From Streptomyces davaonensis JCM 4913 (GTDB lineage Bacteria; Actinomycetota; Actinomycetes; Streptomycetales; Streptomycetaceae): 64,000 bases of DNA. The stretch is from positions 1,054,001 through 1,118,000 of the forward strand of contig NC_020504.1 in the NCBI RefSeq assembly GCF_000349325.1, read 5' to 3'. Under the pieces are notes generated by a model. The model was given only the letters and a program-made list of their open reading frames with translations. It was not told the origin of the DNA and did no database searches. Position 1 is the first letter of the stretch. Every line of letters begins with the position of its first letter. Below, in pieces: positions 21,786 through 22,793 of the stretch. Made by a program: the position numbers and the translations under genes.

Positions 21786-21807
21786 GCGAGGCTCGGTTAG
21801 GGTGAGG

Positions 21808-21884
21808 GAGGGCCGTGACTGGCGCTGAGGTGGAGCACCACCGGGGAGCGGCCCACGCAGAGTCGAATGCCGTGCGCCTGGGCG
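21808..21884 (+). ncRNA. ZTP (pfl) riboswitch upstream of folD
   Basis: The segment matches the conserved pfl/ZTP aptamer. A first stem is formed by GGGCC (21810-21814) and GGCCC (21850-21854). The internal conserved GTGACTGGCG (21815-21824) is followed by a second stem, GGTGG/CCACC (21829-21833 with 21838-21842), then GGGGAGCG. After a linker comes the 3' motif CCGTGCGCCTGGGC (21870-21883), whose GCCTGGGC part forms the pseudoknot subdomain. ZTP riboswitches turn on folate and purine genes when the alarmone ZTP/ZMP signals a shortage of 10-formyl-THF, and folD is a classic target. TAGGGT at 21798-21803 may be the -10 box. Confidence 0.88.
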
Positions 21885-21905
21885 AACAGGAACATCAGCC
21901 CAGGA

Positions 21906-22793
21906 GTGGATCATGTCTCAGGCACGGCTGGGGGTACCTCCCAGGCCCTTAAGGCACTGGGGGAGGACGGCACCTCCCTCGCCCGGAAGATCGTCGAGGA
22001 GACCGCTGAGCGGGCGGCACAGCTGACCGAGCGCACCGGCACGGCGCCCTGTCTGGCGACGGTGCTGGTCGGCGAGGACCCGGCCTCCGTCACCTACGTC
22101 CGGATGAAGCAGAACCGCTGCCGCAAGGCCGGCATCGAGTCACGTCACGTGGCGCTGCCCGCGGCCACCGGCACCGAGGAACTGGTCGCCACGCTGCGCA
22201 AGCTCTCGGACGACCCCGGGGTGCACGGCATCCTGCTCCAGCACCCGATGGGCGCGCACATCGACGAGCGGGCCGCGTTCGAGGCGATAGCGCCGGAGAA
22301 GGACGTCGACGGGGTCACCTTCGCCTCGTTCGCCACGATGAGCTTCGGGCTGCCGGGCTTCGTCTCCTGTACGCCCGGCGGGATCATGCGGCTGCTGGAC
22401 GCCTACGACGTCGACCCCTCCGGCAAGCGCGCGGTGGTCGTCGGCCGCAGCGCGATCCTCGGCAAGCCGGCCGGCATGCTGCTGCTCGCCCGGGACGCGA
22501 CGGTGACGTACTGCCACTCCCGTACGGCGGACCTGTCGGCGGCGCTCCGGGAGGCGGACATCGTGGTCGCCGCCGTGGGGCGGCCCCGGCTGATCCGGGG
22601 TCAGGACCTCAAGCCCGGCGCGGTCGTGGTCGATGCCGGGTACAACGCGGGGAACGTCGGCGACGTCGACTTCGACTCCGCCGCGGAGCGGGCCTCGCTG
22701 ATCACCCCGGTGCCGGGCGGAGTGGGTCCGATGACGATCGCCACGCTGCTGGAGCAGACGGTGACCGCCGCCGCCCGGCAGCTCGGGGTCTGA
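21906..22793 (+). CDS. folD: FolD: methylenetetrahydrofolate dehydrogenase/cyclohydrolase, 5' end disrupted
   Basis: The body from 21966 encodes a full FolD: DGTSLARKIVEETAERAAQL, LATVLVGEDPASVTYVRMKQ (catalytic lysine in YVRMKQNRC), HGILLQHPMG, EKDVDGV, VVVGRSAILGKPAGMLLL, and TPVPGGVGPMTIATLL. It interconverts methylene-, methenyl- and formyl-THF. The expected start, ATG 21913 with AGGAG seven bases upstream, is in a different frame and stops at 22026. Removing 21931-21965 (35 bases) would join MSQARL directly to DGTSLARK, the usual FolD N-terminus. In-frame alternatives are GTG 21906, which overlaps the ribosome binding site, or ATG 21867, which lies inside the riboswitch. The gene may be inactive or poorly translated. 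The coordinates given use GTG 21906. Confidence 0.75.
   Translation: MDHVSGTAGGTSQALKALGEDGTSLARKIVEETAERAAQLTERTGTAPCLATVLVGEDPASVTYVRMKQNRCRKAGIESRHVALPAATGTEELVATLRKLSDDPGVHGILLQHPMGAHIDERAAFEAIAPEKDVDGVTFASFATMSFGLPGFVSCTPGGIMRLLDAYDVDPSGKRAVVVGRSAILGKPAGMLLLARDATVTYCHSRTADLSAALREADIVVAAVGRPRLIRGQDLKPGAVVVDAGYNAGNVGDVDFDSAAERASLITPVPGGVGPMTIATLLEQTVTAAARQLGV
21931..21965. repeat. 35-base palindromic repeat inserted in folD
   Basis: The segment begins GGGGTACCTCCCAG and ends CTGGGGGAG. CTCCCAG (21938-21944) pairs with the CTGGGGGAG end, and GCCCTTAAGGC lies in the loop, so it can fold as a hairpin. It resembles the short GC-rich palindromes scattered through Streptomyces chromosomes; that resemblance is from memory, not a search. 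It has no coding capacity. Its length is not a multiple of three, so it shifts the folD frame. Confidence 0.7.

Follow-up and report, generated by a model that had tools for sequence, protein, structure and literature searches.

The window analyzed here, a stretch of 64,000 nucleotides, corresponds to C1:1054001-1118000 of the 9.56-Mb genome of Streptomyces davaonensis JCM 4913 (G000) and carries a folD gene, folD2, with a 36-base interspersed palindromic element, here termed E, in its start region (Table 1). A ZMP/ZTP aptamer lies upstream from folD2, the arrangement of a ZTP riboswitch-controlled folD, in agreement with the first-pass annotation, which had placed a riboswitch beside this start. 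The same annotation had read six codons from the ATG preceded by AGGAG, followed by a palindrome and a stop; this was confirmed, with MSQARL running into the repeat and the frame terminating at TGA 22024-22026, and the translation from ATG 21913 starts MSQARLGVPPRPLRHWG. A comparable CAGGAG-spacer-ATG layout is present in close orthologues. The FolD body gave a near full-length match to the NCBIfam FolD models, with scores below their curated equivalog cutoffs. Its frame is free of stops from 21819, and a frame scan of the region 5' of the body found ATG, GTG, or TTG codons only at ATG 21867, which falls within the aptamer, and at GTG 21906, whose G is the final base of the AGGAG motif. The scan thereby upheld the earlier view that an intact FolD body is left without a conventional in-frame start.

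Table 1. Features of the folD2 start region (positions in the window)
Feature	Position	Strand	Basis or remark
ZMP/ZTP riboswitch aptamer 5' of folD2	21805..21890	+	Rfam RF01750, 61.3 bits (gathering threshold, 39)
AGGAG ribosome-binding motif	21902..21906	+	Sequence; 6 bases 5' of ATG 21913
GTG in FolD frame, weak alternative start	21906..21908	+	Frame scan; overlaps AGGAG motif
Native start and six codons, MSQARL	21913..21930	+	Last base is the first base of E; TGA at 22024-22026
Element E, 36-base interspersed palindrome	21930..21965	+	Occupies the place of the nearest orthologue's CATG; preceded by T 21929
Hairpin of E	21938..21963	+	Arms 21938-21947 and 21953-21963, one bulged base; fold and pair counts
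FolD body, 275 codons and stop, intact	21966..22793	+	NCBIfam FolD models; never reached by the ATG 21913 frame

The claim that a 35-base repeat shifts the folD frame stood with regard to the frameshift by a palindromic repeat, but the length had to be corrected, as 36 bases (21930-21965) replace 4. In the closest relative found (G183; 92.9% DNA identity over folD and a very similar leader), the junction lacking E reads ATGTCTCAGGCACGGCTCATG-GACGGC, while that of the window reads CGGCT, 36 bases, and GACGGC; the 36 bases stand for CATG, a net gain of 32. CATG is also found at this site in most close orthologues, a few having GATG, TATG, or CATC. Alignment of orthologues, proposed earlier as a check, thus did recover a junction without the repeat in close Streptomyces relatives, but not the ancestral junction predicted from a 35-base deletion. 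The CATG-bearing junction encodes MSQARL-M-DGT, and most close Streptomyces orthologues lacking E have the N terminus M-x-Q-A-R-(L/I)-M-(D/E)-G, the exceptions being L093 (Ile at the second Met) and L095 and L101 (other residues at Leu); more distant folD2 orthologues have N termini of other kinds. Within the window, the stretch 21940-21965 occurs once, with 0.00 occurrences expected from shuffling.

The check for a second folD in the genome, also proposed earlier, showed two further folD genes, with 44-45% identity, making folD2 the third copy. An orthologue of folD2 (at least 74% identity over most of its length) was found in 15 of 37 same-genus genomes, including its own, by a search that is imperfect, given that one genome of 98% completeness (G028) yielded no folD whatever. 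The body shares 74-91% protein identity with the 14 other same-genus orthologues, and G009 retains a 73-residue piece. folD2 is an accessory paralogue.

The element belongs to a family. Allowing up to 3 mismatches in 36 bases, 106 of 392 Streptomyces genomes contained the element, with 501 copies and up to 48 per genome, and a reversed-pattern control gave 0 throughout. A separate scan of named genomes returned at least 120 stretches, of which all 120 listed were read; among the matches listed, 79 of the 80 named-genome rows with the repeat are Streptomyces and 1 is Actinacidiphila. S. davaonensis itself has two exact copies and one diverged match (model search; 150 of 14,234 first-look candidates scored). 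The consensus consists of TGGGGGYAC followed by the hairpin CTCCCAxGCC-nTTnA-GGCnx'TGGGGGAG, in which x and x', left free in the search pattern, are complementary in all 120 copies listed (62 G-C, 44 C-G, and 14 T-A) and pair in 65 of 67 distinct rows that include looser matches. Across these 67 rows the G runs vary little or not at all, and 99.1% of 670 arm cells pair, versus 31.5-59.7% when the arms are slid. The covariation score of the hairpin (0.123 versus 0.029 in shuffles) exceeded all 500 shuffles; two of the five pair measures (both-side changes and further pair types) were not above the shuffles, because only one pair covaries. As to the hairpin noted earlier at the initiation region, in RNA folding isolated E folds into it, with unremarkable energy (z values of -0.7 and -0.8), whereas a different pairing is predicted in the 79-base folD context (z = 0.29).

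A 56-base query with E had no match in phages and matched six Streptomyces plasmid records, and a phage or plasmid element was rejected on these results. No description of E was found in open-licence PMC literature by string or by topic, in a search that strings broken by spaces would escape.

Copies of E occupy recurrent sites. A T immediately precedes E in 106 of the 120 copies listed, and 30 of the copies listed fall in one site cluster, GTGCCGCCCT^E^GCACGACTGC, followed by clusters of 16, 9, 7, 7 (a near variant of the first), and 5. At the site of the largest cluster (intergenic site B), the nine empty forms measure 7 bases (CCCAGCG in most), against 37-42 bases, mostly 39, in the 26 filled forms, for a net gain of 32; candidate empty forms at two other sites give +33, with short flanks that may not be homologous. 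The cluster of 5 unites a dioxygenase gene with a site A and with folD of Streptomyces cyaneus. At site A, which reads CGATCCGGCT^E^GACGGCACCGCC and is similar to the folD site (CGGCT^E^GACGGCACC), the loci of several species are orthologous, the flanks aligning by BLAST over up to ~950 bases (L046, L062, L070, L072, L123, L186, and L206; L061 is alike in its flanks and lies outside the BLAST set), so that the E copies at this site may be inherited. One copy (L218, 3506-3541) lies within a match to the cobalamin riboswitch (Rfam RF00174, 3466-3573); such a riboswitch was also suspected at E in L055 and L059, judging by the sequence, and rejected, as L218 alone has an Rfam match.

Judged by codon usage around 142 copies, coding signal was seen on neither side of E in 103, on one side in 28, and on both sides and the same strand in 11; this heuristic depends on a threshold and overlooks some cases (L147), and two loci, L034 and L130, represent the same gene and site. 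Five of the 11 in-gene copies preserve the frame, where about 1 in 3 is expected by chance; some frame-preserving copies add 12 codons. Pfam families at E sites were arginase, endonuclease/exonuclease/phosphatase, L-PSP, dioxygenase, and HAD-hydrolase, in a scan that left out pieces of L051, L067, L105, L130, L147, L168, and folD; frameshifting copies also occur in arginase-family and endonuclease/phosphatase-family genes. Both exact copies of S. davaonensis are within genes. The second (L034, C1:6498129-6498164, minus strand) splits a gene assigned by Pfam to MFS transporters with a net gain of 34; the two parts are one base out of frame, and translation in the original frame terminates within E. 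In Streptomyces malachitofuscus (L130), the same MFS codon holds E, with differing neighboring bases. In relatives, this site reads TCGATG or TCCATG in all 23 readable loci (6 of the 29 fetched were unread), and among the matches listed for the region, which matched in 199 of 199 genomes, for the most part with poorer matches toward the end of the list, no form of E length (+34) other than that of S. davaonensis was found.

E recurs at the folD site itself. S. cyaneus CGMCC 4.1671 (G276) and G397, a draft assembly of 91% completeness and 8% contamination, have the E junction at the identical folD base, and they were the only zero-mismatch cases in a folD-specific search of 348 genomes, among which G000 was not drawn and some of which lack the gene. 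Among the best 120 of 4,439 FolD relatives, one protein, P0001, contains the peptide encoded by E, in the form MAGGTSQALKALGEDGT; the database is clustered at 90%, which may hide further carriers. This protein suggests a fourth E-bearing folD.

Of 36 orthologues taken for a folD tree (G017 and more distant ones were left out), 35 were retained, including L078, a long-branched sequence whose ungapped identity is low. The one dropped, L102 from G303, lacks E and has a stop after 194 body codons, possibly an independent inactivation. The three E-bearing genes fall in three places in the tree, each beside E-less genes: G000 with G183, G276 with L084 and L089, and G397 beside L090 and L091 (support, 78). 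On both sides of E, the three junctions diverge from one another within 6 bases, which makes one short transferred tract unlikely, and transfer from another E-bearing folD was rejected on this ground. We infer that the three junctions represent separate gains, which would mean that E prefers the folD site; the tree cannot formally exclude a single old insertion followed by repeated loss.

No coding decay of the FolD body was detected in any of the three carriers. The median omega between carriers and other orthologues was 0.181 (94 pairs), within the background of E-less genes compared among themselves (0.164; 486 pairs; dS of 0.1-0.8), and the nearest pair of G276 gave 0.275 from few changes. 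In three-way counts, the changes private to S. davaonensis were synonymous in 15-16 cases and nonsynonymous in 1-4, the corresponding values for G183 being 10.5-17.5 and 3.5-5.5. These counts speak against long-standing pseudogenes, yet they give no date for the insertion; either the insertions are recent or synthesis of a product persists.

Our preferred reading, to which we give a probability of roughly two-thirds, is a recent insertion of E with the FolD2 product lost or strongly reduced, and we place it ahead of an alternative start and of recoding. One member of a family of ~36-base interspersed palindromes would have inserted at codon 7 of the riboswitch-controlled folD2 and swapped out CATG, shifting the frame. 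E would move as a small mobile palindrome with a strong site preference, and the FolD2 product would be lost or much reduced, a loss that the genome may tolerate by virtue of its two further folD genes. Finding E at the same place in folD of other Streptomyces lineages suggests an undescribed mobile element that is selective in its sites. The intact FolD body in all carriers and the small number of E copies in S. davaonensis, two exact and one diverged, weigh against this reading. More tentatively, and with more doubt than belief on our part, E might be a minimal sequence-specific homing element, a hairpin written into chosen targets that replaces a few bases, leaves no duplication, and repeatedly hits one and the same folD nucleotide and MFS codon in different species.

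The first alternative, which we consider unlikely but worth keeping in view, is that FolD2 is still made from GTG 21906 or ATG 21867 and carries an extra N-terminal segment, part of which is the E-encoded GGTSQALKALGE. The FolD frame is indeed open through E and upstream, all three carriers have the same-frame GTG 7 bases before the ATG in our reading of the alignment, one database FolD is annotated with the N terminus MAGGTSQALKALGE in the E frame, and the lack of coding decay would also fit continued synthesis. However, GTG 21906 overlaps the AGGAG motif and is therefore without a separate ribosome-binding site at normal spacing, and orthologues lacking E have the same GTG within their spacer.

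A much less probable alternative is recoding, in which ribosomes starting at ATG 21913 would either slip by -1 on the GGGGG run that precedes the hairpin or jump between the first GGG and the one that closes E, and would then read on into FolD. GGG can re-pair one base back, a hairpin could fold a few bases downstream, both the G runs and the pairing arms are strongly conserved in the family as described above, and the quality of the coding sequence is preserved. Against this, the fold predicted in the 79-base context is not the E hairpin, the MFS transporter frame stops inside E, and the six frameshifting sites show, in our reading, no bias, requiring -1 in folD, L159, and L168 and +1 in the MFS gene, L164, and L211, for which reason recoding as a general rule was rejected. 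In L159, moreover, E falls in what we take to be the arginase metal-binding motif, so that a recoded product would probably be dead. The first-pass annotation had considered tolerance through an unusual mechanism; no result demands one.

Slightly less credible still is the idea that E adds regulation, the extra post-start hairpin modifying riboswitch control and the site being kept for that purpose. In all three carriers, the RF01750 aptamer passes the gathering threshold (matches lie at 21805-21890 and in L231, L232, and L233), and E sits at the same site in three places in the tree. The frame is shifted in all three, however, so the normal product is not what would be regulated, and E also occurs at unrelated intergenic sites and in other genes. 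An assembly or sequencing artifact can practically be dismissed: short palindromes can be misassembled, but three assemblies, that of S. cyaneus CGMCC 4.1671 among them, have the same junction, and both the flanks and the variant of E differ among them.

E shares features with several known systems. Miniature inverted-repeat transposable elements (MITEs) are small, non-coding, dispersed elements, as is E, but no target-site duplication was seen with E at folD (net +32), at intergenic site B, or in the MFS gene (net +34), and target bases are lost instead. The Rickettsia palindromic elements, of ~100-150 bases, are interspersed and found also within protein-coding genes; E is likewise a short interspersed palindrome with copies in coding genes, some in frame, but it has 36-37 bases, swaps out a few target bases, and frameshifts folD and other genes. 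The mobile bypassing elements (byps) of yeast mitochondria are small hairpins inserted into coding sequences and bounded by matching triplets, a description that applies to E as well; the genes bearing E, however, vary in their frame need. REP sequences are repeated palindromes of 21-65 bases and extragenic by definition (PMC1525189). On that description, E resembles REP/RAYT systems as a short repeated palindrome of 36 bases found in 106 of 392 genomes, with a hairpin, a covarying pair, and frequent location in intergenic repeats, but differs in also entering genes.

PF01797 (Y1 transposase) was matched in 139 of 392 genomes and in 59 of the 106 with E (odds ratio, 3.2; Fisher P = 8e-7, with relatedness ignored). 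There was no PF01797 match in G358 or G330, which have 48 copies of E (the most of any genome) and 32 copies, respectively, or in the E genomes G142, G307, G160, G239, and G414; a RAYT as the only mover was therefore rejected. No transposase was recognized by eye among the predicted proteins between three pairs of E copies, and a transposon between E pairs was likewise set aside for the three pairs inspected; seven other loci also have two E-like copies.

If E is mobile as proposed, a single-gene oddity becomes a traceable mobile palindrome with recurrent base-exact targets and pairs of empty and filled sites, and the spread of transposase-less short palindromes becomes directly testable in Streptomyces. 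A riboswitch-controlled accessory folD is interrupted in several lineages, and the E-bearing folD2 genes offer natural alleles for testing ribosome passage of such a hairpin.

Further E-like sequences were noted. S. davaonensis has a diverged 39-base match (L301, C1:3603289-3603327, minus strand) whose opposite-strand flanks resemble an ABC-transporter ATPase motif by eye. G397 contains a related shorter repeat of ~31 bases, scoring ~22 bits, with tens of equal-scoring copies in many places. In G321 (L256 and other places), 34 matches to the folD pattern were found; those listed mostly read CAGCCACGACTGGGGGCACCTCCCACGCC, apparently an amplified unit containing E.
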